Positions 4,036-47,971 of a DNA stretch of 63,659 nt are shown one piece after another. The first letter of the stretch is position 1. The number at the start of each line of letters is the position of its first letter. Under the pieces are notes generated by a model. It searched no databases and was not told where the DNA came from. It was given only the letters and a program-made list of their open reading frames with translations. This stretch comes from Lentihominibacter faecis (lineage in GTDB: Bacteria; Bacillota; Clostridia; Peptostreptococcales; Anaerovoracaceae). Location: assembly GCF_014306095.1 (NCBI RefSeq), contig NZ_JACRWC010000109.1, positions 1-63,659 of the forward strand, given 5' to 3'. The translations under genes were made by a program, and so were the position numbers.

Positions 4036-4097
4036 TCTCTTCTTCTCATTATACTCCACGTGGTCTGTTCCACTTTAAATACCGTCAGTCGTATAAC
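4018..4097 (-). ncRNA. ZTP/ZMP riboswitch (pfl motif)
   Basis: On the minus strand an outer stem GTTATAC/GTATAAT (4091-4097 with 4048-4054) encloses CGACTGACGG, then a second hairpin GTGG-AACAGA-CCAC (4060-4073), then GTGGAG. It is followed downstream by CCGTCTGGGC, matching the invariant CCGCCUGGGC-type segment of the class. The aptamer senses the purine-pathway intermediate AICAR (ZMP/ZTP), a signal of 10-formyl-THF shortage. Placement before fhs, a known target of this class, and the overlapping terminator support the call. Confidence 0.85.
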
Positions 4098-4103
4098 AAA
4101 TCC

Positions 4104-10185: not shown

Positions 10186-10235
10186 AAATAGCGATTTTGT
10201 GGTAAAATGAAAATATAAAAAGTGCGATTTTGCGA
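10151..10235 (+). repeat. 33-bp tandem repeats upstream of the AAA/DUF4143 ATPase
   Basis: Two and a half units with exact 33-base spacing start at 10151, 10184 and 10217. Each begins AAAAA(GTG/TAG)CGATTTTG and the full units continue to GTAAAATGA. The last partial copy runs into the ATPase ribosome site, so the array could act as an operator or leader for that gene. Confidence 0.85.
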
Positions 10236-10249
10236 TGGGGGCTGATTTT

Positions 10250-32687: not shown

Positions 32688-33028
32688 ATGCTTTTTATAG
32701 AAATCCGAAGTGTTCGACGTGCAAGAAGGCTAAGAAGTATCTGGAGGAGCACGGGATCGAATTTGAGGATCGTCATATCGTAGAGGAAAATCCGACGAAG
32801 GAAGAATTGACGCAGTGGATCCGCATCAGCGGCAAGTCGGTCAAGAAATTTTTTAATACCAGCGGGATGAAGTACCGGGAACTGGGACTGAAGGATAAAC
32901 TGCCTCAGATGAGCGAGGAGGAGCAGATCGAACTGCTGGCTTCCGACGGTATGCTGGTGAAGCGTCCGCTGCTGATCGACGGCGAGATGGTGCTGATGGG
33001 ATTTAAGGAAGCGGAGTGGCCGGAATAG
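32688..33028 (+). pseudogene. ArsC/Spx-like thioredoxin-fold protein with an N-terminal frameshift
   Basis: The ATG at 32688 has AAAGGAGG before it and reads MLF, but the CSTC-containing frame (YRNPKCSTCKKAKKYLEEHG and onward to the stop at 33028) is offset by one base. Adding one T to the T5 run at 32692-32696 would give a continuous 113-residue protein of normal ArsC/Spx length, ending DGEMVLMGFKEAEWPE. The CxxC motif, KKFFNTSGMKYRELGL and VKRPLLID segments are typical. Either a real inactivating deletion or a sequence error in the homopolymer. Confidence 0.8.
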
Positions 33029-33076: not shown

Positions 33077-33633
33077 GCCCGAGCTGCAGCTCGGGCAGGA
33101 AACGGCAGCAACTCGTCGCACCTATCTAAACACCATTATATTCCCCGGTATTTTTAGGGAGGATTGCAATATGAAAACATTGCAATCTCCCTTTTTTTAT
33201 TCTTTTTTTCAAAAAATCTCAAATTCTTTCAGGCGAATCTGTCAGTAATCCTATTTACAAAGATGAAGGACAAAGGAACACCGTTTCAAGAAGCCTTCGA
33301 GAAACAGAACTTTGACAATTTCATAGCGAGGATGGGTACGTTCCCTGCACATGGAGCCGCCGTACAAGTGCGCTTTGCGAGAAAGGCAGCCGTGGAGTTA
33401 ATAGCATTGACGGGCTGCAACACTACTGTGCGAAATAGAGACCGTGGCGGTTTTTATGGCGACGATCTGCGCCGGGTAATCATGATACTTGCGTCTTGAA
33501 CGCTTCACAGCATTGGGCGCCTCGGACGGGGTCGGAGAAGGAGCTTCCGCAGGAAACACGGATCAAAGCCTTATGGAGCAGCCAGCCACTGCCGCCCATC
33601 CACGCATTATAACTAGCGAAAAAGGAGGAAACG
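33077..33633 (+). other. Non-coding leader of the tail-particle island
   Basis: No convincing gene in 550 bases. It starts with a perfect palindrome GCCCGAGCTGCAGCTCGGGC (33077-33096). A strong terminator follows at 33157-33198, with 13 paired bases (GGGAGGATTGCAAT against ATTGCAATCTCCC) and seven T residues. From 33199 to 33633 I see no protein homology, no obvious TATAAT promoter and no RNA family I recognise, only the AAAGGAGG ribosome site of the next gene. It may hold the promoter or an attachment/control region. Confidence 0.6.
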
Positions 33634-33825
33634 ATGGTAGAAACAAAATGTATTTACGGAGATTGCGAGTACGTGGAAGAACAGCTGAATCAGTATCTCA
33701 ACGATGGCTGGAATGTTCTGGATATGAAGACCACTCTGTACGACAGCACGGCCGGTATACGCCGGGACACGACCGTATATCTCATTAAAACAGATCAGAA
33801 CATCGAACTTACAGAACTTGCATAA
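33634..33825 (+). CDS. Small protein at the head of the tail island (DUF4177-like shape)
   Basis: 63 aa. EEQLNQYLNDGWNVLDMK followed by strands resembles the short DUF1737/DUF4177-type proteins (helix then GW and a strand). AAAAAGGAGG precedes the ATG. Function unknown. It is the first gene of the island. Confidence 0.6.
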   Translation: MVETKCIYGDCEYVEEQLNQYLNDGWNVLDMKTTLYDSTAGIRRDTTVYLIKTDQNIELTELA

Positions 33826-33919
33826 AAAAGCTGGGCCGCCAGCAAGGCTGCGCAGCCCAAGACTTTTTTAGATCTCACACCTGACAGACAGGGAGAACAA
33901 ATGAAGGGAGGATACAGAC

Positions 33920-34219
33920 TTGAACGAAGAAAGTACAGAAATCCTGATCCCGAAAAAGCGCTTTGATGAAGTCAATGAAAAGCTAAAAGCGCTGCGGGAG
34001 GAAAACAAGGCTTTAACAGAAGCCAATCAACGCTTACAGAAATTCGAGTCGGACTTTGCAGAGGCGAAAACCACGCTGGATTTAAAAGAGATTTTTGTAG
34101 AAGCAGGATTCCGGAAAAAAGAATACGAGGGAATCGTCTGCAGGATCTCATGTCCCAGCAGGGAAGAAAAAATCGCTTTGGCGAAGGAAATCGTAAAAAT
34201 CAAACAACAGGAAATTTAG
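33920..34219 (+). CDS. Coiled-coil protein resembling a phage scaffold/GP20-like protein
   Basis: 99 aa starting at a TTG with GGGAGG 8 bases upstream. Residues 12-50 form a charged coiled coil (FDEVNEKLKALREENKALTE). The C-terminal part (DLKEIFVEAGFRKKEYEGIV) resembles the end of phage scaffolding/minor structural GP20-like proteins. No capsid gene is present for it to scaffold, so it is either a relic or has a tail-related role. It lies 12 bases before the tail-tube gene. Confidence 0.6.
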   Translation: MNEESTEILIPKKRFDEVNEKLKALREENKALTEANQRLQKFESDFAEAKTTLDLKEIFVEAGFRKKEYEGIVCRISCPSREEKIALAKEIVKIKQQEI

Positions 34220-34231
34220 GAGGAAAAAACA

Positions 34232-34615
34232 ATGGCAATTAGCACAAAAGGAACCGTTTTAACAGTTAAGAAGAGCGACAACAAGGAAATCGAAGTAAAA
34301 ATCAAGTCTTTCCCGGATCTGGGAGTAGCACCGGCAGCGATCGACGTAACATCTCTGGCAGATGATGTACAGAAGTTCATCCCTGGCGTTAAGGGCATGG
34401 GCGCTATGGAATTTGTTGCTAACTACGATGAAGCACAGTTCGCAGAACTGACAGCTTGCGAAAACGAAGAGCTGACTTATGTGATCAAGATCAACGGCGT
34501 GAACTACTCCATGACTGGTCAGCACAGCGCTCTGATCGCAGCAGGCGCAGTAAACGCAGCTGTAGACATGAAGATCGTTGTTACACCGTCTTCCAAGATC
34601 GAAAAGACTGCATAA
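34232..34615 (+). CDS. Tail tube protein (siphophage type)
   Basis: 127 aa. VKIKSFPDLGVAPAAIDVTS near residue 24, MEFVANYDEAQF near 60, then YVIKINGVNYSMTGQ and a C-terminal beta region, are the layout of small long-tail tube proteins. It would polymerise as hexameric rings around the tape measure. AGGAGG precedes the ATG and codon use suggests high expression. A terminator-like hairpin follows, as expected for a structural protein needed in excess. Confidence 0.85.
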   Translation: MAISTKGTVLTVKKSDNKEIEVKIKSFPDLGVAPAAIDVTSLADDVQKFIPGVKGMGAMEFVANYDEAQFAELTACENEELTYVIKINGVNYSMTGQHSALIAAGAVNAAVDMKIVVTPSSKIEKTA

Positions 34616-34644
34616 TCCAGGCAAAGGTAATGCCTGACATTTCC

Positions 34645-34673
34645 GGGGAAAAGGGCCTTGCGCCCTTTTTCCC
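34645..34673 (+). terminator. Attenuator-type hairpin between tail tube and chaperone genes
   Basis: GGGGAAAAGGGC-CTTG-CGCCCTTTTTCCC. The stem is long but the T run is inside the 3' arm, so partial termination is likely, which would set a tube-to-chaperone ratio. Confidence 0.55.
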
Positions 34674-34736
34674 GTTATAACGTTAAAAAACTGCTGCCGG
34701 GCTGGCGGCGGTGAAGGAGAACAATCGGAGGAAATT

Positions 34737-35063
34737 ATGAAAATCAACGGAACTGAATATACGATGCCTGAACTGAATTTTAACACCATGTGCAAGCTGG
34801 AGGACATGGGTGTGTCCTTAACGGAAATGGATCAGAAAGTCTTAACGACGGTCAGAGGATTCTTAGCCCTCGCCATGGATGATGACATGGAAAAGGCAGG
34901 TATGGAAATTGAACAGCATTTGGCTTCCGGAGGCAGTCTGGACCCTCTCATGGAAAGCATCAATAAGGCGGTAAATGAGAGCGGTTTTTTTCGCGCTCTC
35001 TCCCAGAGCCAGGAGAAGGGGAATGCTGCGAGCACGGAAACGAGCGGAGAAAAAACGGTATAA
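34737..35063 (+). CDS. Tail assembly chaperone G
   Basis: 108 aa. MPELNFNTMCKLEDMGVSL and a helical body followed by a Ser/Glu-rich tail are typical of small siphophage G-type chaperones, which sit between tail tube and tape measure and keep the tape measure soluble during assembly. Located correctly after the tail tube. Its C-terminal codons contain the A6 slippery run used for the GT fusion. GGAGG precedes the ATG. Confidence 0.8.
   Translation: MKINGTEYTMPELNFNTMCKLEDMGVSLTEMDQKVLTTVRGFLALAMDDDMEKAGMEIEQHLASGGSLDPLMESINKAVNESGFFRALSQSQEKGNAASTETSGEKTV
35049..35056 (+). promoter_or_regulatory. Candidate programmed -1 frameshift site
   Basis: The zero frame reads GAA AAA ACG over an A6 run (35050-35055), three codons before the G stop codon. 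The -1 frame is open across this point and continues to 35464. A P-site AAA can re-pair with AAA one base back, giving AAC next. G/GT frameshifting is conserved in long-tailed phages, but this A-AAA-ACG site is weaker than the classic X-XXY-YYZ heptamer. Confidence 0.65.
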
Positions 35064-35464
35064 CAGTATGTGAAAGCATCAGGGAGCTGATTTATGAGGT
35101 GTATTTACCGGGCGCACTGCAGATAGGGGTAGACTATGGGCTTTTCTGGCGGCTTACGCCGAAAAAGCTGGAGCCGTTTTTAAAGGCGTATGAAAGCAAG
35201 CAGAAAGAGCAGCTGGAGTTTATCAATATCGCAGGCTGGGTCAATGGGATGTACGCAGGTTACAGCCTGGGGGCAGCCTTCGGGGAAAACGTGCAGTACC
35301 CTGAGAAACCGGTTCAGATCTTCCGATCGGAGGAGGAGATACAGGAAAACACTGACTGGGAAGCCGAATATTTCAGCGCCTATGCAGCTATGTTCAATAA
35401 ACAGTTCGAAGAAAAAGGAGGAACCTCATCATGCAGCGATGTAAATATCCCACAAAAACCATGA
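35054..35464 (+). CDS. Tail assembly chaperone T domain (expressed as a G-T fusion)
   Basis: The -1 frame after the slippery site encodes about 136 aa. After a short linker (ITVCESIRELIYEVYLP) comes GLFWRLTPKKLEPFLKAY, then INIAGWVNGMYAGYSLGAAF and an acidic end, matching the T half of gpGT chaperones (FW-x-LTP then an alpha-helical array). The combined G-T product would be about 242 aa. A GTG at 35099 exists but has no ribosome site, supporting expression by frameshifting. It overlaps the lysin gene by 34 bases. Confidence 0.75.
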   Translation, partial: NGITVCESIRELIYEVYLPGALQIGVDYGLFWRLTPKKLEPFLKAYESKQKEQLEFINIAGWVNGMYAGYSLGAAFGENVQYPEKPVQIFRSEEEIQENTDWEAEYFSAYAAMFNKQFEEKGGTSSCSDVNIPQKP

Positions 35465-36291
35465 ACATTACGCAAAGTTATACCGGTACCTACAGCCACA
35501 GCAAGAACTATAACGGTAGTCCCCGGGATTATCCGATCGACGATAACTCCGGTACTACGGGCAGAAGTTATTTTTATGCGCCGTTTGACTGCAGCATCAA
35601 GCGTATTTATGGAGTTGGTGCAAAGGGCACGAATACCATATGGATCCAGTCCCAGGCGCCTGTGCAGACGCCCAGCTTTACGGATTATGTGACGATCATG
35701 GTGATCCATCCCAACGATGATACGCTGAGCAAGCTGAAAGTGGGACAGGTATTCCGGCAGGGAGCGGCCATGTTCCTGGAGGGAAACGACGGCAGGGCTA
35801 CCGGGTATCACTTCCATATTTCTGCGGGGCGCGGCAGAGCGCAGGGCAACGGATGGAAGCAGAACACCAGAGGAGCCTGGGTCCTGGCGACTTCAGGAGG
35901 AAATTATCCGCCAGAAAAGATCTTCTATATCGATCCGGCGTTTACAAAGGTGCAGGGAACGAAGGGGCTGCAGTTCGTTCGTTCCGGCGTGGCACAGGCA
36001 GGAAATACAGGATCATCCTCTTCCTCAGGGAATTATCGTGCTGGAGCCACGCTGACCTTACGGGCAGATATGAATGTTCGCACCGGCCCGGGGACAAGCT
36101 ACCGGAGAAAAAAGCGCAGTGAACTTACAGCTGACGGCAGAAAGCATGCTTTGAGTGGGACTTATGCTGTGCTGACACAGGGAACGCGGGTTACCGTGCA
36201 GAAGGTACAGGTGTCCGGCAGTCAGATCTGGATCCAGATTCCATCTGGATGGATCTGTGCGAAGCTGGGAAGCAAAGTATATGTAAGCTAG
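35431..36291 (+). CDS. M23-like peptidase with SH3 domain (probable lysin)
   Basis: 286 aa. The N-terminal half looks like an M23/LytM fold: DYPIDDNSGTTGRSYFYAPF with the first metal-site Asp, VTIMVIHPND, and GYHFHISAG with an HxH pair near residue 127. The C-terminal half (200-286) is an SH3-like domain (ADMNVRTGPGTSYRRKKRS). No signal peptide, so it would need a holin, which lies at the island's far end. AAAGGAGG precedes the ATG. The position between the chaperone and the tape measure is unusual; lysins normally sit next to the holin. Confidence 0.8.
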   Translation: MQRCKYPTKTMNITQSYTGTYSHSKNYNGSPRDYPIDDNSGTTGRSYFYAPFDCSIKRIYGVGAKGTNTIWIQSQAPVQTPSFTDYVTIMVIHPNDDTLSKLKVGQVFRQGAAMFLEGNDGRATGYHFHISAGRGRAQGNGWKQNTRGAWVLATSGGNYPPEKIFYIDPAFTKVQGTKGLQFVRSGVAQAGNTGSSSSSGNYRAGATLTLRADMNVRTGPGTSYRRKKRSELTADGRKHALSGTYAVLTQGTRVTVQKVQVSGSQIWIQIPSGWICAKLGSKVYVS

Positions 36292-36342
36292 ATGCAGCTG
36301 ATCACAAGATATGCTCCTGATTTGGAATGAGGGTGGATTTAC

Positions 36343-36720
36343 ATGGAAAAGAAACGATATATTCCGGTGAAAGGCCGTAAGATCTACGTTGAGAAAGAAC
36401 TGTTCGATGAATATAACAGGATTCGCAGCAGGCAATGCTATCACAACAACAAATATGCAGCAGCTACCTGCGAGCTGAAAGAAACTGATCAGGATCGTCA
36501 CTGTGAAAGCGTAGAGGAGACAGTGATGCGGGATTTTGATAAAAGCCAGCTGATGCGGGCGATCAGAACGCTTCCGTTGAAAGAACAGGAAATCCTGTAC
36601 TGGATCTATGTGGAAAATCTCAGTGAAGTAAAAGCAGGCAGGAAGCTGGGTGTAAACAGCAAGACTCTGCATTCACAGAAACAGCGGATTTTGAAAAAAT
36701 TGAGGCTGATGCTTACATAG
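36343..36720 (+). CDS. Sigma-70 region 4-like transcription factor
   Basis: 125 aa. After a basic N-terminus (KKRYIPVKGRKIYVEKE), residues 70-120 read MRAIRTLPLKEQEILYWIYV then LSEVKAGRKLGVNSKTLHSQ, a region-4-type helix-turn-helix. A short region-2-like helix may lie at 20-45. Such small sigma-like proteins control late genes in phages or mobile elements. Likely a regulator of the tail genes, but no cognate promoter is identified. It is followed by a terminator. Confidence 0.75.
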   Translation: MEKKRYIPVKGRKIYVEKELFDEYNRIRSRQCYHNNKYAAATCELKETDQDRHCESVEETVMRDFDKSQLMRAIRTLPLKEQEILYWIYVENLSEVKAGRKLGVNSKTLHSQKQRILKKLRLMLT

Positions 36721-36730
36721 GAAATTTAAG

Positions 36731-36783
36731 AAAAACGGGTGGTGATTCATAACAAAAAAACATGAGAAAACTGCCCGTTTTTT
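36731..36783 (+). terminator. Terminator after the sigma-like gene
   Basis: AACGGGTGGT and ACTGCCCGTT can pair across an A-rich loop and are followed by six T residues. The first block of island genes ends here. Confidence 0.6.
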
Positions 36784-36810
36784 ATGCGAAAATCCATGAA
36801 AATCCCTTCT

Positions 36811-36819
36811 GGGGGGGGG
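36811..36819 (+). repeat. G9 homopolymer within a short direct repeat
   Basis: Nine G residues are flanked by AAAATCCCTT on the left and AAAATCCCTT on the right, about 45 bases upstream of the -35 box of the HTH gene. Tracts of this type can vary in length by slippage. Confidence 0.75.
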
Positions 36820-36861
36820 TAAAAATCCCTTATAAGTACTGAAGTTTCAACGTTTGCCGTG

Positions 36862-36890
36862 TTGAGTCAGTAGAAAATTCAGGATATAAT
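36862..36890 (+). promoter_or_regulatory. Promoter of the HTH gene
   Basis: TTGAGT and TATAAT are separated by 17 bases, about 40 bases before the start codon. Confidence 0.7.
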
Positions 36891-36928
36891 ACGACGTGCT
36901 CAGTTAAAATATATCAGGAGGAAAAAAC

Positions 36929-37372
36929 ATGGCAAACAACAAGTTAAAAACGGAAGAACTGGACAAGGTGTTAGACAGTGTATCGTCAGAAGAACAGCTG
37001 CAGGAATATCTCGATCGCTATACCAATAAAGAAGGATATGGATTCTGTCAGTATTTTAATGAATATCTGGCAGAACATGATATAGTTCATGCACAGGTGA
37101 TCGCTGACTGCAATCTCGATAAAGACTATGCCACTCAGATCACCAATGGAACGAAACGGAATCCCGGAAGAGACAAAGCTCTGGCACTGTGCATCGCGGC
37201 AGGAATGAAGAAAGATGAAATCAACAGAGCAATGAAGCTGCTGAAGGTATCACCGCTGTATTCCCGAAACAAGAGAGATTCCGTATTGCTGATGCATATC
37301 AATAAAGGAATCCGCAAGGTCATCTATATCAATCTGGAACTGGACCGGCTGGGACTTCCGATCCTGAAATAA
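36929..37372 (+). CDS. XRE-like helix-turn-helix protein
   Basis: 147 aa. A helical N-terminal part (residues 1-45) is followed by an HTH-like unit (EHDIVHAQVIADCNLDKDYA, then ITNGTKRNPGRDKALALCIA) in which NGTKRNPGRD is the turn before the recognition-support helices. The C-terminal helices end RLGLPILK. AGGAGG precedes the ATG, and the gene has its own promoter. It is convergent with the kinase gene, the stop codons three bases apart; such HTH/kinase neighbours suggest a shared signalling unit. The repressor target is unknown. Confidence 0.7.
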   Translation: MANNKLKTEELDKVLDSVSSEEQLQEYLDRYTNKEGYGFCQYFNEYLAEHDIVHAQVIADCNLDKDYATQITNGTKRNPGRDKALALCIAAGMKKDEINRAMKLLKVSPLYSRNKRDSVLLMHINKGIRKVIYINLELDRLGLPILK

Positions 37373-37375
37373 GGA

Positions 37376-38374
37376 TTAAAAAAGATACAGAAGGCGCAGC
37401 AGTCCTGCAGCCAGAAACCCGGAGAACAACATCCAGAACAGGAAGCCGGAGACGGTCGACCTGCGGAGAATCGGCAGCTTATCGGAGATCCCACCGATGT
37501 TGCACAGGAGCATCACGAGAAACAGCAGCCAGAGGGTAACGCAGATATGATCCTGCATCAGGTGCTGTGTGGAAGTCTTCGTGGGAATGGAGAGTGAACT
37601 TCCGATCATAATGGCTGCAATAGACAGCAGGAATGCCAGGATCGGATGGGATTTGCGGACAGGGCACGGAGGTAAGCTTTTAGAAGAACGGGAAATCAGA
37701 GCTGATTTCAATTCCTCTACGGAAGCGTACCGTTGCTCTGGAAGCAATGCTGTGCAGCGTGTGATGATTTCGCCGAGAGATTCTGCTGGGCGTTCATATC
37801 TGGGATAAGTGCCGGTGAGCATCTTGTTGAGCAGAACGCCCAGTGCATAGATATCAGAGCGAGCGTCCGATTGCCCGAAGCCGTACTGCTCCGGAGCGGC
37901 ATATTCTCTTGTGCCAAGGAGAACGGTATCTTCTGGTTTCCCGGCATCAAATTCACGGGATGCATCGAAGTCGATGAGAATCACATGGTCGGAGGGAGTC
38001 AGAAGGATATTGGACGGTTTGATATCGCGATGGATGATGGGCGGATCACAGCGATGGAGAGGCGAGAGAATATCACATAACTGGCATACGATATCGACGG
38101 CGGCATCCTCTGGAAGATTAAAAGATTCATTTAAAACGGTCTGCAGCGTCTGGCCGGAGATGTAGTCTTCGTACAGAAAAAGACCCTCTTCGGTTTCACA
38201 GAACTCATGGATCTGTGGAATGCCGGAGAAGGAGAATACCTGCAGTTTGTTATACAGCTCTCTGTTGTGTGCAGGAATGGGCTTCTTCACATACATCTTG
38301 CGGGTGTCAGTGTCCTGCACCAGAAGAATTGGTTTCGTTTCATCTAGCACATCGATTTCGCGATAAGATGACAT
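37376..38374 (-). CDS. Membrane-anchored Hanks-type Ser/Thr protein kinase
   Basis: 332 aa from the ATG at 38374 with AAAGGTGAG upstream (a GTG 15 bases earlier has no ribosome site). The kinase lobe holds the ATP-site Lys (MYVKKPI, about 30), the catalytic loop IIHRDIKPSNILL, LIDFDAS in place of DFG, and GTREYAAPEQYG in the activation segment. Three hydrophobic segments fill the last 95 residues, and no extracytoplasmic sensor domain is present. The key catalytic residues are kept, although DFD is unusual. It is divergent from the 349-aa gene and convergent with the HTH gene. Confidence 0.88.
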   Translation of the reverse strand: MSSYREIDVLDETKPILLVQDTDTRKMYVKKPIPAHNRELYNKLQVFSFSGIPQIHEFCETEEGLFLYEDYISGQTLQTVLNESFNLPEDAAVDIVCQLCDILSPLHRCDPPIIHRDIKPSNILLTPSDHVILIDFDASREFDAGKPEDTVLLGTREYAAPEQYGFGQSDARSDIYALGVLLNKMLTGTYPRYERPAESLGEIITRCTALLPEQRYASVEELKSALISRSSKSLPPCPVRKSHPILAFLLSIAAIMIGSSLSIPTKTSTQHLMQDHICVTLWLLFLVMLLCNIGGISDKLPILRRSTVSGFLFWMLFSGFLAAGLLRLLYLF

Positions 38375-38521
38375 AGGGATGTTTCTCACCTTTCATATTT
38401 TAGTGATTTCAGTATACCATAGAATATCGTGCGCCGGGCACGATATTTAAAATGTAATTCCCAATTAGCATCATATAGTGTACAATAAAACCAGTAAAGA
38501 AACCCATGCAGGAGGTGCGTA

Positions 38522-39571
38522 ATGGCGAACGAGAAGAAAATCGCGAAAAATCAAAAACTTTTTCTTAGTTGGTTAGAACATGTTATAGAAGTTGAAAATC
38601 AATTACAAAATGCAGAAGATAATAAAAAAATAGAAAAGTTGCAGAAAAAGTTGAAAAAAAATAAGGACATGGTAGTCTATAATGGTAAACTTATAGGTCA
38701 AGAGGGCGGCACAATACAGAGTATATGGGATCAGTTGACTGAACGGCAGCAACAAATTGTACAAGAGTTGTTTCCATATGGTCTGGCGGCAGAGAATCTT
38801 AAACAGCAGGAAGGTCGCCTTCATATTATTAAGTTCTATAAAAAGGATATTCAAAAGGTCCTAGAGGCTGAAAAAAAATACCCGCCTTATGATCCGAGTC
38901 TTCCGGTCAAGGAAAAATTAAAAAATAAGCGATATAAGGCGGAAATCAATCTGGGCTGGTATATGTATTTAAGATCAAAAAAAGATAAAAGTACCTATGA
39001 ACCTGTGTGGAATTATGAGGAGCATTTTGCAAATACCGTGGAATTTTCTGAAGAAGAACGGCAGATTGTAGAACGCTGCTATCAAATTGGAAAAGAATAT
39101 GATGAATACAACAACCAGAAATTTGCATTTGTAGTTAATCTGGGAACTTCTATGGTGGATAAAACAGATGAAATGAGTAAGTGGGGAGATCGTACACAGT
39201 CGAAAGTATGGTGTAGGAATATGTATACAAAAACCTTTCCTAAGTTTATTAAGCAACTGAATCCCAGTCGAAAATATACAGCTACAGAATTAGAATATGA
39301 ATCGAAAGAGATGATGAAGCGTTTTATCGAATTTGCCAGAGATGAAGATGGTAGATTGGCGTTAATGAAGGAATGGCATGATCTGCTTCAAAAGGAGGAA
39401 CTGGCTGGGCTGAGTAAAGATCAGAGGGAAGAAATCGTGATGAACATGGTAAGCCAGAAAATTGGAGAAGAAATGACCGTGTTTTTGTATGTATATGATA
39501 CTGAAGATTCGGTGGTAGAGGCTATGGAACTGATCAAGAAACACAGTTTCGAGGAACTGGGATTGGAATAG
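38522..39571 (+). CDS. AT-rich cytoplasmic protein of unknown function (island cargo)
   Basis: 349 aa, with no signal peptide or membrane segment. The first 60 residues are charged and probably coiled (QLQNAEDNKKIEKLQKKLKK). Later parts are helical with aromatic patches (EINLGWYMYLRSKKDK, VWCRNMYTKTFPKFIKQL). Lys/Glu-rich, with AT-rich codons unlike the kinase and tail genes. AGGAGGTG precedes the ATG and a terminator follows, so it is a self-contained unit. I recognise no family. Options include an immunity, defence or regulatory cargo gene; nothing in sequence decides. Confidence 0.75.
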   Translation: MANEKKIAKNQKLFLSWLEHVIEVENQLQNAEDNKKIEKLQKKLKKNKDMVVYNGKLIGQEGGTIQSIWDQLTERQQQIVQELFPYGLAAENLKQQEGRLHIIKFYKKDIQKVLEAEKKYPPYDPSLPVKEKLKNKRYKAEINLGWYMYLRSKKDKSTYEPVWNYEEHFANTVEFSEEERQIVERCYQIGKEYDEYNNQKFAFVVNLGTSMVDKTDEMSKWGDRTQSKVWCRNMYTKTFPKFIKQLNPSRKYTATELEYESKEMMKRFIEFARDEDGRLALMKEWHDLLQKEELAGLSKDQREEIVMNMVSQKIGEEMTVFLYVYDTEDSVVEAMELIKKHSFEELGLE

Positions 39572-39594
39572 TTAGAAATAAAGATATGCAGTAA

Positions 39595-39631
39595 AAAACT
39601 GTTCATGAGTGTGAATCATGAGCAGTTTTTT
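39595..39631 (+). terminator. Terminator after the 349-aa gene
   Basis: AAAACTGTTCATGA and TCATGAGCAGTTTT form a long stem with a T run. A strong ribosome site follows at 39646 before a six-codon frame (MREKNL, 39661-39681), possibly a relic; the tape-measure gene has its own AAAGGAGAG. Confidence 0.8.
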
Positions 39632-39714
39632 ATTGCATATAACAAAGGAGGTGATGCCTATGAGGGAGAAGAATTTATAAAAATACATTATAAGACGATG
39701 AAAGGAGAGAATTT

Positions 39715-41856
39715 ATGGAAGAAAAAAAAGAAACAAAGCTGGATCTAAAAAGCATAGGCAAGGCGGCTTCATCAGTGAAAGCTTTAAGTGATTCTTTAAA
39801 AGATTGTCAGGAACAAATGAAGCAGATGAAAGAAGGAAATGTTTCGGCGATAGAAGGAATTTTGAATATTGCTGTTGCAGCAGGAGGCGCATATGAAGCT
39901 TTTGGGTCATTAAAAGATATGGCAAAAACTGTCCAAAAAAGCTTGGCAAAAAATGTGGACAGTAAATTTATAAAAAAATTTGAGGAATCTGTAACAGAAA
40001 GTGTCAAGAAAATAGGGGCGGGTTTGCAGAAGTGTCCCGATGCTGTTAATAAATTCAAGGACAGCATTAAGGCTTTGCCTGAAAAAGTTGCATCGGCTTT
40101 TGGAATTGTTGCCAAGAAAGCTTCTAATATGGTTGAGGACATTAAAACCGGCTTCTCCACCATGAAAGAGCATATCAAAAACTTCGATTTCAAGGAGTTT
40201 ATGGAGAAGGTCAAGCAGCTTCCGTCTAAGGTGAGCAGTTCGTTTAAATCACTGGTATCCAGTGCGACGACTGCGTTAAAAGAACTTCCGGGGAAGGCGA
40301 AAGCTTCCGTGAAGCAGATCCCTTCGATACTGGAGGGGGGATTTAAAGGAGCAGGCGAAAAGCTGTCTGCTTCAGCATCCTCAATCGGCGCGGTGGCAGG
40401 CAAAATGATGACAGTCGGACTTGTTGGCGGTGTTGCTCTGGCAGCAGTCGCAATCGTAGGATTCGTCGCATTGTTTCAGAAGCTGATGGATAGCAACGAG
40501 GCTTTCCGGGAGAAGATCACAGCAGCCTGGGCGCAGGTAAAGGAGGCATTCCAGCCTGCCATAGATGCATTCAATACCTTTAAGGAATCCATCATGGGAA
40601 TCACGAAAACGGATGCCTTTGATTCTTTCGTGGAGAGTTTCGGTGACGGTATCGTAGGGCTGATCGACATCATTTCAGAAGTAGTCGGTATCGTAGCAGA
40701 TCTTTTATCTGGTATTTTCGGATTCCTGACGGAGCTGTGGGAAGAGCACGGAGAAGGTCTCATCGAAAAAGTTCAGGAAGTCTGGGAAGGCATTGTAGAA
40801 TTCCTTCAGACGCTGGGAGAAGGGATCCTGGAAATCTTCTCAGCGATCTTCGAGGTATTCAAAGAACTGTGGGACAAGCATGGATCTTCACTGATGGATG
40901 CAGCCTCTTCTCTGTGGAACTCGATTCTGGATATCGTCTCTGTCGTGTGGGATGCCATCAAGGCGGTGATCGGCACGGTAGTGGATATCGTGAAAGCTAT
41001 CTGGAACAACTTCGGAGAAGAGATCATGATGGTAGTGACTGCGGTCTGGGAGTTCATAATGGGAATTGCAGAAGGCGCTATGAATTTTATCTCCGGTATC
41101 ATCGACGTGATCGTCGGTATCTTCACCCTTAACGGAGATAAGATCCTGGAAGGCTTCGGAAAGATGTGGGAAGGAGTCAAAGGACTCTTTGATGCAGGAC
41201 TTGGATTCGTAACGGGCATCTTCTCAGCAATATGGAGCGTGATCAATAAGATCTTCGACAAGGTGGCAGACTGGTTCGGCGAAAAGTTCAGCGGAGCATG
41301 GAAGGCGATCAAGAATGCCTTCTCAAGCGTAGGCTCGTTCTTCAGCGGAATCTGGGATAAGATCTGCAGCATCTTCAAGAACATCGGCGTTAAGATCGGT
41401 TCTGCAGTAGGCGGTGCATTTAAGAGCGCTGTCAACACCGTAATAAGATTCGCACAGGGCATTATCAATGGCTTTATCGGAGGTCTCAACAAGGTAGTCA
41501 AGATCATCAACAAGATCCCGGGAGTCAGCATCAGTCTGATCCCGAAGGCGAGTCTTCCGAAGCTGGCAGATGGCGGGATCCTGGAAGCAGGGCAGATGTT
41601 TATAGCCAGAGAGAGGGGACCGGAGCTGGTAGGATCCTTCGGAAGCCGAAGCGGAGTTATGAACAACGGACAGATCGTGGAAGCCGTGTCCCGGGGCGTA
41701 TTCGAAGCAGTGAAGAGCGCCATGAGCGGAGGCGATGGAGGAAACTTCACATTCCATATCAACAACCATCTGGATGGAAAAGAGATCGGAAAACAGGTGA
41801 TCCGTTATCACAATGGTATCGTGAAGCAGACGGGTATGAGCCCGCTGCATGTGTAA
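39715..41856 (+). CDS. Tail tape-measure protein
   Basis: 713 aa. Long amphipathic helices, a central hydrophobic stretch near residues 235-255 (MTVGLVGGVALAAVAIVGF), repeated Trp-containing helices with a period of about 45 residues (LWEEHGEG, LWDKHGSS, IWNNFGEE), and a C-terminal PKASLPKLADGGILEAGQ segment typical of tape measures. At roughly 1.5 angstrom per residue the tail would be near 100 nm. The first 140 codons are clearly AT-richer than the rest, implying a recombination joint near 40150. It is separated from the chaperones by the cargo genes, which is unusual. Confidence 0.9.
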   Translation: MEEKKETKLDLKSIGKAASSVKALSDSLKDCQEQMKQMKEGNVSAIEGILNIAVAAGGAYEAFGSLKDMAKTVQKSLAKNVDSKFIKKFEESVTESVKKIGAGLQKCPDAVNKFKDSIKALPEKVASAFGIVAKKASNMVEDIKTGFSTMKEHIKNFDFKEFMEKVKQLPSKVSSSFKSLVSSATTALKELPGKAKASVKQIPSILEGGFKGAGEKLSASASSIGAVAGKMMTVGLVGGVALAAVAIVGFVALFQKLMDSNEAFREKITAAWAQVKEAFQPAIDAFNTFKESIMGITKTDAFDSFVESFGDGIVGLIDIISEVVGIVADLLSGIFGFLTELWEEHGEGLIEKVQEVWEGIVEFLQTLGEGILEIFSAIFEVFKELWDKHGSSLMDAASSLWNSILDIVSVVWDAIKAVIGTVVDIVKAIWNNFGEEIMMVVTAVWEFIMGIAEGAMNFISGIIDVIVGIFTLNGDKILEGFGKMWEGVKGLFDAGLGFVTGIFSAIWSVINKIFDKVADWFGEKFSGAWKAIKNAFSSVGSFFSGIWDKICSIFKNIGVKIGSAVGGAFKSAVNTVIRFAQGIINGFIGGLNKVVKIINKIPGVSISLIPKASLPKLADGGILEAGQMFIARERGPELVGSFGSRSGVMNNGQIVEAVSRGVFEAVKSAMSGGDGGNFTFHINNHLDGKEIGKQVIRYHNGIVKQTGMSPLHV

Positions 41857-41883
41857 GAATAAAGACGAGGAGGATATATTACA

Positions 41884-42456
41884 ATGAGTATATTAAGACG
41901 GATTCAGCAGATGAGAGCTTCCTTGAGCGGAGGCTCTTTTTTATTAGAAGCAAGCGGTGATCTGGCAGCAGGTGATACTCTGCTGATCGTCAAAACTTCC
42001 GGTGCACATCAGGAACTGCCGGAAGAAGTGACGGTAACAGAGAGAGGAGACGGCAGTTTTAAGCTGGCGGATGAGATCATGGCTTTGTTTCATGAAGGGG
42101 AGATGGTAGTCTTCGGATATTTTACAGATTTGAAAGATCCACAGAGCCTGCAGTGGGATATCTCCGATCTTGACGGAGGAACCGGAAGAAATCAGATGGG
42201 ACAGTATTTTCGGGACCGTATGACCAGTAAACGGACGCTGACCTGCTCCTGGGGAGCTCTGAGCGGAGATGATATGGCTGGCCTTCTGTGCATGATGGAG
42301 GATGTTTTCTTCCTGTTGGAGTATCCGGACGCTCTCACAGGAGAAAGAAAGCGCAGTGAATTTTATGTAGGAAACCGGACGACCCCAATGCTTCGTCAGA
42401 AGCCGGACGGCAGCTGGATGTGGCAGAACCTGTCGGCTACATTTACAGAAAGGTAG
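41884..42456 (+). CDS. Tail protein at the distal-tail position (DUF6711-like)
   Basis: 190 aa. The C-terminal half has DGGTGRNQMGQYFRDRMT, TLTCSWGALSGDDMAGLL and SEFYVGNRTTPML, matching the small siphophage protein usually coded between tape measure and tail-tip protein. The N-terminal half is beta-rich. Probably part of the tail tip or a distal-tail adaptor. Its stop is followed within 10 bases by the tail-tip start. Confidence 0.65.
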   Translation: MSILRRIQQMRASLSGGSFLLEASGDLAAGDTLLIVKTSGAHQELPEEVTVTERGDGSFKLADEIMALFHEGEMVVFGYFTDLKDPQSLQWDISDLDGGTGRNQMGQYFRDRMTSKRTLTCSWGALSGDDMAGLLCMMEDVFFLLEYPDALTGERKRSEFYVGNRTTPMLRQKPDGSWMWQNLSATFTER

Positions 42457-42465
42457 GTGAGAGGA

Positions 42466-45120
42466 ATGCTGCAAGTAAGTGAAAAGTATGAGAAACAGAT
42501 TCTGGCAGATAACAGGAGCCTTCGACTGAAGGTTGAATGTCTGTATTCTCTGCAGGGTGAGGTGATCCACACCCTGCAGGGAGACGACTGCATTATCAGC
42601 ATGGAACTGGAGGAAATGGTAAATTCCGAGGATGTGATCACCATGGGGAGTGCCTGCTGCGGGAAACTGACCTTAAAGCTGATCCAGGCCCCATCAGGTC
42701 TGGATTACGACCACATGATCCTGCGGGCGTTCAGCGGACTTTCACTGGATGATGGTCAGATCGAATATGTACCGCTGGGTATATTTTATCCCAGCGAAGT
42801 CAAGAGCGACGGCAGCTGCGGCAGCATGACTATCACGGCATATGACTCCATGTGCCTGCTGGAACAGCCATATGCAGCAGATCACGTGGGATTCCCGGTG
42901 AAGATGGAAGTGATCGCGCTGGAAATCGCAGCACTGGCAGATGTGACATTCGCAGAAGATGTGAAATTCGCAGACTATGAGATCGACGCGCTGCCGCAGG
43001 AGTTGACTCTGCGTCAGATGATCGGATATCTGGCCGGACTCATGGGATGTTTCGCTCGTTTCAATCGAGAAAATAAGCTGGAGTTCAGCTGGTATGAAGA
43101 TACGGATGTAGAAATCACACCGAAGGAACAGTATCTCAATGGATTTGTGAGGACGCTGGATTCTCCTCTGACGGTGACCGGGATCATTTCCGGTACGGAA
43201 GAAACTTCTTATTCTCAGGGGAGAGGAGGTTTCGGTGTGATCGTGAATTTCACCAACCCGTTTATGAAAAAGACCTATCTGGACGATATCTGGGAAGATA
43301 AAATCGCAGAAGTGACACCGGTGAATTTTACAGCTGTTTACAGCGGGCAGCTGGAGGAATCAGGGTTTGAAGCAGAATACCAGGGGGATGGTATCTGGAA
43401 GGCAGCACGCGATGTGGATCTGTGCAGAGGTGATATCCTGCGGGTAAGTGACCTATCTGGATGGAATCTGGCAACGGATCGCGTCGTGGTGACTTCTGCT
43501 GGAAGCAGAGATTTTCAGCTGTCTGACGCCAGTGGAATACCGCTGCAGCCGGATGTTGAAGGAGAAGGAGAAACACAGACCCCGTCGGCTGTATTTACAC
43601 GGCTGGTCCAGTGGGTCTGTGAAGAACCACAGTCTTTCTCAGAAGAAGATATTCTGACACAGGATGGAGAGCAGTATGTTGTTTCGGGAATCAAAAAACA
43701 TGATTTTGTACTCCTTAAAGCAGATCAGTCGATGCTGACAGATCCTGCAGCAGGGCTTACCTGGTCGCTGCAGTATCGCACGGCGATCAACTACCGCATG
43801 AGTTATCAGCCTGCTGAGCTGCAGTGGCGCGGAAATCCGGCATTACAGGCGGGTGATGTGATCACAGCTGTGGATACGGAAGGGAATTCGTATCGTATTC
43901 CGATCATGAGCCAGACCTTGATCTTCGATGGCGGGATCGTATCCAAGATCACAGCGAAGGGAGAGACGACATCTGATGCCAGCTTCTCCAGTGCATCGCC
44001 GACGGTGCAGCGTATCACAAAACTGTACAGCGATATGCAGGAGGCAATCAGGGATGTTACCGGTAAACTGACTGGAAAAAACGGAGGGACGGTATCCTTC
44101 GCCTATGATGATGATGGACTGCCATCGGAAATCTACATTTCCAATACGAAAAAGATCCAGCCTGACAGTCATGTATGGAGATGGAATCAAAACGGACTGG
44201 GATTCAGTGCCAATGGTCTGGAAGGACCGTTTGAAACAGCCATGACCAGCGATGGCAAGATCGTAGCTGGTATGATACGGTCAGGAAGCGTGGCAGCGGA
44301 TGTCATTGATATCGAAGGTGTGATCGAGACCATCAATGCCAGCGACGGCACCAGGATCGACGGCACGCGGGTAGCACTGAAAGGCAAGCCGCTGGACAGG
44401 ATGATCGAAGCGTCTGTCAGTTCGACGGGCGGAACAAATCTGATATACAATTCCACCGGACATTTAGTGGATAATAAGTTTGACGGCTGGATAACGAAGG
44501 AAGGTGCTGAGCCGATCATAGAGATAGACAGTACCAATCTGATTTCTCAGAGAGCCTTCTGCATAACAGGTCCAAGCTATCTGAAGACGACAGTGCCGGT
44601 TACCGCTGGACAGATGCACACGTTCTCCTGCCGTGTGAAAAAGCCTGCTGCACATTCTTTGCAGATCTCGCTGGGAAAAGATATGGTGTTTGAGAGCCGG
44701 GAAATCATCGGGGACTGGGAGCTGATACATTATGAGTTCGTACCGGATGATAAAGAGATGAAGCTGGATATCGCAGTGGAAGCCGGCAAGGCTTATGTCG
44801 GGGATCTGATGCTGTGCGTGGGAGCAGGGACGACGTGGAATCAGGCGTCTAACGAAGTATTCGGTACCAATGTGAAACTGACGAAGGATATGCTGATCAT
44901 TGCACCGGAAGATGATCGTGACCAGGGTGTGAAGACTACTATAGATCCATCGGGCATGAAGATCACCGACAACAGACCGGGACAGAATCGTATCGTGGAA
45001 TACGATGTGAACGGAGTAAGTGTCCGGAGGGTGATCTCAGATGGACAGGTGTCTTCTGGAAAAACCAGCATGATCCCTATCGATCAGCGTAATGCATGTA
45101 TGTGGATCATCAGGGAATAG
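42466..45120 (+). CDS. Tail-tip / minor structural protein (Tal-like)
   Basis: About 884 aa. The start at ATG 42466 follows GGTGAGAG; a GTG at 42457 is less likely. The first 400 residues look like the phage tail-tip hub family (LGIFYPSEVKSDGSCGSMTI, GYLAGLMGCFARFNRENKLEF). The middle carries TVQRITKLYSDMQEAIRDV, a coiled region, and the C-terminal 200 residues a carbohydrate-binding-like beta domain (LQISLGKDMVFESREIIGDW). No cell-wall hydrolase motif seen. It would close the tube and initiate contact with the target. Confidence 0.8.
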   Translation: MLQVSEKYEKQILADNRSLRLKVECLYSLQGEVIHTLQGDDCIISMELEEMVNSEDVITMGSACCGKLTLKLIQAPSGLDYDHMILRAFSGLSLDDGQIEYVPLGIFYPSEVKSDGSCGSMTITAYDSMCLLEQPYAADHVGFPVKMEVIALEIAALADVTFAEDVKFADYEIDALPQELTLRQMIGYLAGLMGCFARFNRENKLEFSWYEDTDVEITPKEQYLNGFVRTLDSPLTVTGIISGTEETSYSQGRGGFGVIVNFTNPFMKKTYLDDIWEDKIAEVTPVNFTAVYSGQLEESGFEAEYQGDGIWKAARDVDLCRGDILRVSDLSGWNLATDRVVVTSAGSRDFQLSDASGIPLQPDVEGEGETQTPSAVFTRLVQWVCEEPQSFSEEDILTQDGEQYVVSGIKKHDFVLLKADQSMLTDPAAGLTWSLQYRTAINYRMSYQPAELQWRGNPALQAGDVITAVDTEGNSYRIPIMSQTLIFDGGIVSKITAKGETTSDASFSSASPTVQRITKLYSDMQEAIRDVTGKLTGKNGGTVSFAYDDDGLPSEIYISNTKKIQPDSHVWRWNQNGLGFSANGLEGPFETAMTSDGKIVAGMIRSGSVAADVIDIEGVIETINASDGTRIDGTRVALKGKPLDRMIEASVSSTGGTNLIYNSTGHLVDNKFDGWITKEGAEPIIEIDSTNLISQRAFCITGPSYLKTTVPVTAGQMHTFSCRVKKPAAHSLQISLGKDMVFESREIIGDWELIHYEFVPDDKEMKLDIAVEAGKAYVGDLMLCVGAGTTWNQASNEVFGTNVKLTKDMLIIAPEDDRDQGVKTTIDPSGMKITDNRPGQNRIVEYDVNGVSVRRVISDGQVSSGKTSMIPIDQRNACMWIIRE

Positions 45121-45155
45121 GAAAGTAGTTTTATGAACAGATTGGAGGAATCAAT

Positions 45156-47546
45156 ATGGCAAGTGGCACAATAAGTATTTCATCGCCGTCCAAATCGGCA
45201 GCGACTTATCTGGCGTGGAGCTCCAGCTCCAATGGATCGGAGAAAAACTCGTCTGTAGTTTCGGCAACGGCTTATTTTAGAAAAACCAATGGATATACGA
45301 CGACCGGTACGTTCTCAGGAACTATAACCATTGATGGAACGGCATATTCCATCAAACGGTATGGCACGTGGCAGAGCAGCTATATCGCCATCGGCAGTGC
45401 GTCGAAAACGGTGGCGCACAATGCGGATGGAACACGGTCGGTGGGGATCAGCGTAAAGTATTCCAATTCGGGAACGAACCAGGCGGGGACGTATTCTGGA
45501 AGCGGCACGGTTACGCTGGACCGGATCCCGCGGGCATCAGGGATCTCAACGGCAGCATCATTTACAGCGGGAGAGCCTTTTACCGTGGGGATCAGTCGAA
45601 ATTCCAGCTCGTTTACCCATACTGTATCGGTGAAGGTAAACGGAGTTGAGGTGGCAAGTAAAACCGGCGTAGGGACCAGTGTTACATTTTCAGGGGATGT
45701 GTTTTACTATGCGGTCTACTCGGCACTTGGGGGGAAGTCCAGTGCGGCAGTGGTGGTGACAGTCACTACTTATACGGGCAGTGGATCTTCCGGAAGCAAC
45801 ATCGGAAGCAAGACGGCTTCAGGAACGGTATTGATCGTAGAGCCGAATGGACTGAGCTGCGCGGATGCTGTAAATGTAGGGGAGCAGCTTGCGATCACGA
45901 CATCTCGCAAAGGAGGATATGTGCATACACTGGCATATTCTTTTCGCGGTGAGTCCGATTCGGGAGCATTGAGCGGTTATCTTCTGGGAGCAGCGGGAGC
46001 ACCAGTCAGCGATGAATCTGTTCGCTGGGAGATACCGGCAGCATTCTATGAACGGATGACGACCTTGACGAAAGCAGACTGTCAGCTGACGTTGACTTCG
46101 TATTATGATGGCGGAGCGATGGGAATCTGCCAGGTGGGCGCGACCGTATCTAAAACGGTGAGTATTCAGGTGACCGGGAGTGAGCCGGTGTTCTCAGACT
46201 TTACGTGGAAGGATGGAAATCAGCAGGCGCGGGCACTGACGGGAAGCGACGGGATCCTGATAGAAGGATATTCGAAGCTTGAGGTGACTGTACCGGCAGC
46301 CAGCCGGGCGGCAGCACGTAACAGTGCACAGATGGTGTCCTATCTTCTGGAAAGCGGCGGTACCAGCGTGCAGGCTGCGTATGCAGCAGACAGAGATGTT
46401 GATCTTGTTTTAGATCCGGCATGGGGAAACACCATCGACGTTACGGCATATGATACGCGTGGCCTTTACACTACCGTGCGGAAGGAAGTGACGCTGAAAT
46501 CATATAGACCGATCGTGATCCAGAGCGCAGATGCAGAGCGTAAAAACGGCGTGGAAAAGGAAACCAATCTGAAGATGTCAGTATGGTTGTGGAATGAAAG
46601 TTTCGGTCAGGTGATGAATGGGATCAAAACGTGCAGCTACCGGTACCGGGACAAGTCTTCGGAAGGATGGGTGACAGGTACCAAGGCTGTTTTAGCATCG
46701 GATTTCAGGTATGAGGAAGGTCTGTATCAGCTGGAGATCCCGGTGATCGGGGATGATCCGGAAGGCTTTTCTCTGGCCGGCAGCTTTGAACTGGAAGTGA
46801 CCGTTACAGATGAGCTTTCTTCAGATACCGTAAGTTTGGAGCTGGACAGTGGATGTCCGGGGATCTACATGAGAAAGCTTGCTGATGAGGATGGGACACC
46901 GGCGTATCAGATCGGTATCAACTGCGTGCCGGAGGAATCGTTGGGAAGCGGTCTTCATATAGAAGGAAGTGATTTGACGGTGAACGGTATGTCGGTATTC
47001 GGATCGACCCCGGTCGGTGCAGTGATGGGATGGTTCAGCGATGCGATCCCGGCTGGATGGCTGCTGCTTGACGGAAGTACAGTGTCGTGCGAGACATATC
47101 CGAGGCTGTATGAAGTTTTGACGGGAGAAGCTGCTGGATCCGGCGGAACTGATGCCACATTTCAGCTGCCGGATCTGAGAGGCCGGATCCCGGTTGGAAA
47201 GAACGGATCGGATACTGCGTTTAACACGTTGGGGAAAACCGGCGGTGAGAAGGCGCATACATTGACGACTGCAGAGATGGCGAGTCATAGTCATTCTGTA
47301 TCGGGTACAGCTGCGTCCGGCGGGGCGCACACTCATGCGCTGGGTGGTATCGCATCGAGAAAATCTGGAAGCTGGAATGGTTGTGTGGCTTCCACCGGAT
47401 GTACGGATCTAACATGGAATTCCGTGCGTTCAGGAGGCTCTCATTCTCACAGTGTTTCCGGTACGGCAGCAGCTGTGGGAAGCGGCAGTGCACATAACAA
47501 CCTGCAGCCGTATATCGTTATGAACTATATTATTAAAGCTGGCTGA
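45156..47546 (+). CDS. Receptor-binding/collar-type tail protein
   Basis: 796 aa. The N-terminus (GTISISSPSKSAATYLAWSS, GTWQSSYIAIGSASKTVAHN) matches the DUF859-type siphophage baseplate proteins. The middle is a string of beta-sandwich-like repeats. The C-terminal 130 residues form a phage tail collar domain (PVGAVMGWFSDAIPAGWLLL, LPDLRGRIPVGKNG, a His-rich SHSHSVSG repeat and NLQPYIVMNYII). This is the likely target-binding protein. AGGAGG precedes the ATG. Confidence 0.85.
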   Translation: MASGTISISSPSKSAATYLAWSSSSNGSEKNSSVVSATAYFRKTNGYTTTGTFSGTITIDGTAYSIKRYGTWQSSYIAIGSASKTVAHNADGTRSVGISVKYSNSGTNQAGTYSGSGTVTLDRIPRASGISTAASFTAGEPFTVGISRNSSSFTHTVSVKVNGVEVASKTGVGTSVTFSGDVFYYAVYSALGGKSSAAVVVTVTTYTGSGSSGSNIGSKTASGTVLIVEPNGLSCADAVNVGEQLAITTSRKGGYVHTLAYSFRGESDSGALSGYLLGAAGAPVSDESVRWEIPAAFYERMTTLTKADCQLTLTSYYDGGAMGICQVGATVSKTVSIQVTGSEPVFSDFTWKDGNQQARALTGSDGILIEGYSKLEVTVPAASRAAARNSAQMVSYLLESGGTSVQAAYAADRDVDLVLDPAWGNTIDVTAYDTRGLYTTVRKEVTLKSYRPIVIQSADAERKNGVEKETNLKMSVWLWNESFGQVMNGIKTCSYRYRDKSSEGWVTGTKAVLASDFRYEEGLYQLEIPVIGDDPEGFSLAGSFELEVTVTDELSSDTVSLELDSGCPGIYMRKLADEDGTPAYQIGINCVPEESLGSGLHIEGSDLTVNGMSVFGSTPVGAVMGWFSDAIPAGWLLLDGSTVSCETYPRLYEVLTGEAAGSGGTDATFQLPDLRGRIPVGKNGSDTAFNTLGKTGGEKAHTLTTAEMASHSHSVSGTAASGGAHTHALGGIASRKSGSWNGCVASTGCTDLTWNSVRSGGSHSHSVSGTAAAVGSGSAHNNLQPYIVMNYIIKAG

Positions 47547-47571
47547 TGTTTGTTGGAAAGGAGGTATTGAT

Positions 47572-47874
47572 ATGAGAAGAATGCGAAGGCTGGAAAAGGT
47601 CGTAACGCGGAGAGTGCGGATATCGTCTGCGGATGCTTTGCAGGAATCTGTGATGCCGGATCGAGAGACGATCCTCAGAAGTATTACACTGGCGGCGGTT
47701 CTTGTGAATCAGCTGATCGCAGCATCGGGTCGCACCCCGCTGCCCTATACAGAGGAAGAGTTTTATCAGGGGCTGTCGGCAGTGGTGACGGTGGTGGTCA
47801 GCCTGTGGAGCTGGTGGAAAAATAATTCGTTTACTGCGAAGGCTATTCGTGCGGATCATGCCCGGAGGAAGTAG
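47572..47874 (+). CDS. Phage holin (SPP1-type)
   Basis: 100 aa. SITLAAVLVNQLIAASGRTP, then an EEEFYQGLSAVVTVVVSLWS helix and WWKNNSFTAKAIRAD at the end are the SPP1-type holin signatures, with two membrane segments. It would permeabilise the membrane for the island's lysin. AAGGAGG precedes the ATG. It is the last island gene and is followed directly by pyk, with no lysin next to it. Confidence 0.85.
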   Translation: MRRMRRLEKVVTRRVRISSADALQESVMPDRETILRSITLAAVLVNQLIAASGRTPLPYTEEEFYQGLSAVVTVVVSLWSWWKNNSFTAKAIRADHARRK

Positions 47875-47971
47875 GCGGAAGCTGACACTGCGCGTGCAGC
47901 GGCACGATTGCACCTCGCATTATTTGGTGATATAATAACAGAAATTATGGATGATAATACGAGGTGATAAT

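Follow-up and report, generated by a model that had tools for sequence, protein, structure and literature searches.

Flexible headless tails are described from Gram-negative hosts as F-type pyocin (Pseudomonas) and rhizoviticin (Allorhizobium). Rhizoviticin is encoded by tail and lysis genes without head genes, and in the available part of its description (PMC10811719) F-pyocin and monocin are the only other flexible tailocins named. The monocin of Listeria (ftb cluster) is an F-type tailocin of a Gram-positive host, with a siphophage-type headless tail and a holin-lysin cassette (available part of PMC7076858). Clostridia have another kind of tail-derived particle, the R-type diffocins of Clostridioides difficile (available part of PMC6088184), but these are contractile.

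Here we describe an island of phage tail genes in Lentihominibacter faecis. It lies on a 63,659-nucleotide contig (NZ_JACRWC010000109.1, assembly GCF_014306095.1, forward strand), and this whole stretch is the window referred to below. The island resembles monocin in its Gram-positive host, siphophage-type headless tail, and holin-lysin cassette, and from its genes alone we propose a flexible headless tail like those of F-type pyocin and rhizoviticin. We consider it probable that the locus encodes a domesticated, headless flexible tail and that it most likely serves as an F-type-tailocin-like weapon; that the particle would kill is what we infer from sequence.

The modeled tail tube resembles the monocin tube (8qhs) weakly (E 0.011, rank 16), and the window tube, distal, tip, fibre, orf99, and p349 queries had no sequence match to a monocin PDB chain. 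To our knowledge, neither p349 nor a scaffold-derived open reading frame (ORF) such as orf99 is known from monocins. For rhizoviticin and F-pyocin, the available part of PMC10811719 does not mention p349, the kinase, or the scaffold remnant found in the window.

Tail genes and the search for a head

The coding span of the island is 33634-47874, on the plus strand except for a kinase gene (Table 1). The plus-strand order is a 63-amino-acid (aa) ORF, orf99, the tail tube protein (TTP), the tail assembly chaperone G, T (in the -1 frame), an endolysin-like protein, a sigma-region-4 regulator, and a 147-aa ORF. These are followed by the Ser/Thr kinase on the minus strand and then by p349, the tape measure, a DUF6711 protein in the distal-tail position, the tip, the fibre, and the holin. 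The original prediction placed the island at 33077..47930. The island itself stands, but its start does not, with coding beginning near 33634, about 550 bases later. All the parts it had named (tube, G/GT, tape measure, tip, collar-type binding protein, holin, and lysin) were found. The AlphaFold2 model of the tube (mean predicted local distance difference test score [pLDDT] 69.5) had phage YDC107 and lambda tube proteins as its best PDB matches (E 1.8e-4). The holin and endolysin-like ORFs form a predicted lysis cassette.

The 17 ORFs compared with Pfam and PHROGs lie between 32807 and 47874 and do not include the 63-aa ORF. None of the 17 matched a sheath, and the tail genes are of the noncontractile siphophage type, unlike those of diffocins. 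The predicted absence of terminase, portal, capsid, integrase, and replication genes also held among these ORFs: no convincing head, packaging, integration, or replication gene was found, with the exception of orf99, a scaffold-derived fragment whose Pfam match to Phage_scaffold (0.0044) was below the cutoff. A match of the tip protein to phrog_1067, named "minor head protein" (1.4e-21), was taken as a naming oddity because the best families of the tip are tail families. Within the island and the flanking stretches tested, head, packaging, and integration genes that would complete a prophage were not found.

The overlap of G and T holds the slippery heptamer T_TTT_TTT in the G frame in all five loci compared, which represent four lineages (the window, L001, G349, L124, and G094). 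G349 has one additional candidate heptamer.

Related islands, selection, and the scaffold-derived protein

The same core, in the same order, is found in three more headless islands, which supports the predicted headless flexible tail. One belongs to a single species represented by viral record L001 and genome G349 (97-100% protein identity in nine genes), one to viral record L124, and one to genome G094. A search with the distal-tail alignment found 48 viral loci, and one of these, L001 (a 12.7-kb record), has the gene order of the window. Identities between L001 and the window are 43% for orf120 (the counterpart of orf99), 67% for TTP, 63% for G, 53% for T, 50% for the distal protein, 32% for the tip, 31% for the fibre, and 45% for the tape measure over residues 344-713. 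L001 also has three p349 relatives, 26-27% identical to window p349, whereas the G349 island has two; the latter ends with the lysin, and by eye its neighbors on both sides are host-like ORFs. In the G094 island, TTP, G, and T are followed by a holin-like ORF and by a membrane ORF on the opposite strand; the tape measure, distal protein, tip, and fibre come next, and then two small ORFs and a lysin-like one. In that of L124, orf121 precedes TTP, G, and T, and a membrane ORF on the opposite strand again separates these from the tape measure, distal protein, tip, fibre, holin, and lysin, after which a 550-aa ORF ends the record. Portal family phrog_64 was absent from both headless virus records (L001 and L124) and present in all three phage records searched alongside (weakly in L125, 6.7e-5). 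A TTP scan of viral contigs, limited to two peptide patterns, returned only these two headless records.

The G alignment A6 (32 rows) matched 16 loci in viral contigs, 2 of 349 family genomes (G349 and G094), and 1 of 393 genomes in the order sample (G094 again). The same island had been expected at the spx-like/pyk site of relatives, but it was not found there: both genomes carry it at other sites, and a tip search gave two distant matches only, in one of the eight nearest genomes. Weak tip matches (22-34% identity) occurred in 9 of 247 family genomes; by eye, G217 has head-type ORFs beside its tail, and in G005 the contig ends within the tail region.

An alternative is that a prophage recently lost its head genes and is now decaying, the intact tail being transient. 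We regard this as improbable. It would fit the scaffold fragment left in the island, the rearranged site in relatives, and the few relatives that carry an island. However, the same headless core is found in four lineages, with the slippery heptamer kept. Furthermore, a comparison of L001 with G349 showed no decay of the tail genes. In nine genes (the tape measure was left out), there were no internal stops, and the proportions of synonymous (pS) and nonsynonymous (pN) differences were 0.058 and 0.006, for a pN/pS of 0.11. In orf120 and TTP, synonymous sites differed without a single amino acid change. Therefore, the islands appear to be a maintained class and not a decaying prophage. Of the predicted domesticated bacteriocin, the headless maintained tail thus stands, and we infer that a bacteriocin role is plausible.

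We give little chance to a split system, in which another prophage, a satellite, or a gene-transfer agent in the same cell supplies the head. The head search for the window species was confined to the window, orf99 is scaffold derived, and contig C8 of G349 has a portal (phrog_64, 3.2e-37; no phrog_38 match) and other head-type ORFs. However, by eye C8 holds a prophage that looks complete, with a head and a tail of its own (including a tape measure of 758 aa and fibres) as well as a holin and a lysin, and it therefore has no need for the island tail. In G094, neither portal phrog_64 nor terminase phrog_38, the only portal and terminase families searched there, had a match, and no tail-to-head connector was found in the islands.

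The C8 prophage nevertheless counts against a domesticated tailocin, and so do several other points. A head module could lie elsewhere in the genome of the window species, as the tests covered the island and its flanking ORFs. Purifying selection was measured in a related species, and for the window species there are intact frames alone. The islands are rare, at the 2 of 349 and 1 of 393 genomes given above, and no conserved site was found among them. No tail terminator gene was recognized in the window island or the others, and there were no matches to the form of SOS box searched. Finally, the kinase and the 147-aa ORF are without explanation in a tailocin.

From its sequence, orf99 is predicted to derive from a capsid scaffolding protein. 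A hidden Markov model built from three island copies was used to search 13,243 ORFs from the retrieved loci. It returned its own family (four rows) and then six ORFs at E < 0.001 (L008, 2e-9; L129 and L134, 2.3e-5; L132, 2.7e-4; L018, 4.3e-4; L044, 7e-4), the next two rows being at 0.38 and 0.52. The matching ORF lies between the portal and the major head protein in L008 and L129 (L132 repeats the L129 gene order) and upstream of a 355-aa ORF resembling a head gene in L044. Those of L008 and L018 match head scaffolding families, and those of L129 and L044 have no PHROG match. Part of the signal may be coil, because the non-coiled C-terminal part alone reached 5.9e-6 for L008 but only 0.26-0.27 for the L129 group and because PDB matches of the profile are mostly coiled coils. 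L008 and L129 are siphophages with related TTP, G, T, or distal-tail genes. Unlike the islands, both carry genes for a portal, a scaffold, and a major head protein, and in L008 a tail terminator precedes TTP. One deletion in an ancestral phage, running from inside the scaffold gene through to the tail terminator, may have produced the headless state. The scaffold piece that stayed behind, present in three of the four islands (G094 is without orf99), may then act at the head-side end of the tube, in nucleation or, perhaps, as a cap.

A tree was made of 35 G proteins: 4 from islands, 10 from the 16 viral loci of the G scan, and 21 of 105 database proteins, among which one homologue carries the name "Anaerovoracaceae bacterium." It split, with support 95/92, into 25 rows (4 islands, 20 database proteins, and an orphan G of L125) and 10 rows (9 phage and 1 database). 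Because of the L125 orphan, neither the island nor the phage label forms a single clade (2 changes each). L125, a prophage record of 50 kb, seems to share its IMG genome of origin with L124, and its orphan G (10001-10291) lies away from its own tail genes. In the tree it is nearest to the L124 island G (98/75). It has no T frame, and its SGFF codons include TTC TTT; therefore, the slippery site is lost. This orphan could interfere with tail assembly of the L124 island.

p349 and the start of the tape measure

The gene directly preceding the tape measure encodes p349, which had no family match in Pfam, PHROGs, or PADLOC and no enzyme or toxin domain that we could find. It has no hydrophobic segment. 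Its model is all helical (mean pLDDT 87.6, predicted template modeling score 0.51) and had no Foldseek match at E <= 0.001. Of the 151 database proteins that matched, 120 were listed, and 113 of these were long enough to align with the window protein. The 113 showed 21 combinations of segment types over four segments. The C terminus, in the strict form tested, is conserved in 114 of the 120 listed. P0051 and window p349 are 51-69% identical over the first 175 columns and 94-100% after. Within L001, the third copy matches the first at 95-100% DNA identity over its C-terminal half (78% in the last block), and its N-terminal part is closer to the second.

Islands with p349 have 1 to 3 tandem copies. 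Both copies in the G349 genome are inside the island, and p349 is nowhere else there; it is absent from G094 and was not seen in L124. Scans with window-type patterns or alignment did not find p349 in GTDB contigs, the 247-genome family sample (without G349), or viral contigs, and including the L001 copies in a second scan brought up L001 alone. These negative scans do not prove that p349 is absent. The GC content of window p349 is 0.366, versus 0.43-0.53 for the other island genes, but 33 windows of 1,050 bases in the 63.7 kb have a GC of <=0.37, and 14 of them are away from p349. A promoter-like site and a hairpin around window p349 suggest that it has its own transcript.

A variable binding protein had been expected, but the fibres of L001 and G349 are 99% identical. 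Strong divergence is confined instead to one block, made up of the last p349 copy and the tape-measure start (~150 residues). The tape measures share 20-27% identity in their first 90 residues, ~60% in the 60 that follow, and 93-100% from about residue 150 on. In p349b, DNA identity is 80-88% over the last 120 bases and 88-100% over the rest, and the third copy is in L001 only. Because both vary as one block between strains, p349 may act with the tape-measure N terminus, as a cytosolic partner during assembly or in protection against the tape measure. With one strain pair, this pairing is not separable from chance exchange of neighboring DNA.

A more specific version, which we think doubtful, is that the tail weapon has an immunity array like those of polymorphic toxins, with the p349 copies as cytosolic immunity proteins against a strain-variable active tape-measure N terminus (~150 residues). 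The last copy would match the producer's own, and earlier copies, diversified as mosaics, would protect against those of neighbors; the head-side end of the tail would come from the repurposed scaffold. We know of no tailocin that carries immunity genes. Very unlikely, in our view, is a flexible-tail delivery device with p349 as cargo put into the target cell: its position before the tape measure, lack of a hydrophobic segment, mosaic and copy-number-variable makeup, and conserved C terminus would fit, but two of the islands appear to do without it, no enzyme or toxin domain was found, and its own promoter-like site and hairpin point to separate transcription.

Putative regulators, flanking genes, and proposed function

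The kinase and sigma-like factor that had been predicted inside the island are both real by family match. The kinase also matched PADLOC PD-T4-6 (5e-37), only over residues 57-196, its kinase domain. It was not seen in the other islands; by eye, the L124 record begins with a similar sigma-like ORF. In the slot between T and the tape measure, G094 and L124 have an opposite-strand ORF with one hydrophobic segment. These ORFs are low in GC (0.28 and 0.215, respectively) and are not similar by BLAST. As a guess, these slot ORFs might be regulators or protect the producer. A run of nine G's lies at 36811-36819, between the sigma-like and 147-aa ORFs.

The pemK-like RNA upstream of the tail operon has a counterpart in L124 at 55.6 bits. 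A conserved RNA-like stretch precedes three islands (window, 33230-33630; L124, 843-1056; L122, 17136-17340). Its last part is the Rfam pemK RNA, and it begins ~120 bases before the model match; inspection by eye showed no such stretch ahead of the G349 island. ORFs within 33164-33788 overlap the pemK-like RNA and are probably not genes.

Table 1. Features of the window island and the evidence for each
Feature	Coordinates	Strand	Evidence
pemK-like RNA upstream of tail operon	33479..33576	+	Rfam RF02913, 29.6 bits (gathering score of 34.8 not reached); E 0.0021 in 601 bases
63-aa ORF	33634..33825	+	Similar small ORF at same place in L124, G094, G349, by eye
orf99, putative scaffold-derived coiled-coil protein, 99 aa	33920..34219	+	43% to L001 orf120; HMM reaches phage scaffold ORFs
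Tail tube protein (TTP)	34232..34615	+	phrog_158 major tail 1.9e-9; lambda tube fold
Tail assembly chaperone G	34737..35063	+	phrog_183 3.5e-5; 105 homologues
T part of GT, open frame	34979..35464	+	53% to L001 T; ATG/GTG ORF 35099-35464
Slippery heptamer T_TTT_TTT, -1 frameshift, GT of 242 aa	34985..34991	+	Same heptamer in all five loci
Endolysin-like protein, SH3-like end	35431..36291	+	phrog_9066 1.2e-12; SH3_3 0.0023
Sigma-region-4 regulator	36343..36720	+	PF08281 5.6e-9
147-aa ORF, perhaps regulator	36929..37372	+	No Pfam, PHROG, or PADLOC match
Ser/Thr kinase, three C-terminal hydrophobic segments (hydropathy)	37376..38389	-	Pkinase 1e-28
p349, 349 aa, new all-helical mosaic family	38522..39571	+	No family match; 151 homologues; model
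Perfect-fold hairpin after p349	39584..39640	+	3' of p349
Tape measure protein, 713 aa	39715..41856	+	phrog_58 1.1e-50
Protein in distal-tail position	41884..42456	+	DUF6711 2.3e-6; phrog_1194 (unknown function) 1.3e-24
Tail tip protein, 887 aa	42457..45120	+	phrog_6616 9.9e-48
Collar-type fibre/binding protein, 796 aa	45156..47546	+	DUF859 2.6e-20; Collar 6.5e-13; Gp10_C; phrog_372 6.6e-73
SPP1-type holin	47572..47874	+	PF04688 Holin_SPP1 2.6e-23

The island is flanked by housekeeping regions, as predicted. We tested 20 flanking ORFs (from 18.3-32.6 and 49.5-63.5 kb); 15 matched host families, and 5 had no match at E 1e-5. The left flank is chromosomal, with acetate kinase, a P-type ATPase, and an ArsC/Spx-type gene, as is the right, with pyk, SpoVG, PurR, MurC, PRPP synthetase, peptidyl-tRNA hydrolase, and an Mfd-type gene (pyk and MurC by eye). 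SpoVG is the sole support for the claim that the host is spore forming. No tRNA was found in the window. By pyk, the nearest species (seven genomes) are 76-79% identical. The right flank is syntenic in L049, L052, L061, L058, and G195 (to the end of the G195 stretch); L060 and L053 showed no such synteny. Relatives differ in the gene to the left of pyk, and no empty insertion site could be demonstrated in those compared.

Some side observations concern this neighborhood. The likely ATG of the ArsC/Spx-type gene (32688-33028) is in a different frame from the conserved reading frame, through a natural frameshift or a sequence error. Left of pyk, G195 (L141:4906-6812) has an HNH ORF and an ATPase ORF, by eye a Septu-like defence pair. 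Clostridiales strain 16 (L054:5315-6079) has a stand-alone relative (44%) of the window lysin, 4 kb from pyk, with no adjoining tail genes. A ZMP/ZTP riboswitch lies at window positions 4014-4102 on the minus strand.

If the island is a domesticated tailocin, it might work as follows. The sigma-like factor would switch the operon on, and G and GT would load the short tape measure. Tail length is ~0.15 nm per tape-measure residue, and the tail would thus be set at ~90-107 nm. Holin and lysin would release the particles, the fibre would bind a related cell, and the tape measure would enter the target membrane and make a pore.

Our searches of the open literature found no paper on this class of headless island. 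Flexible tailocins are rarely described, and the group would become broader with a conserved class in Clostridia. Such a class would also show a route from phage to tail-only particle in which everything from the capsid to the terminator is lost and a piece of the scaffold is kept, and it would bring a new protein family, p349, that varies together with the start of the tape measure.

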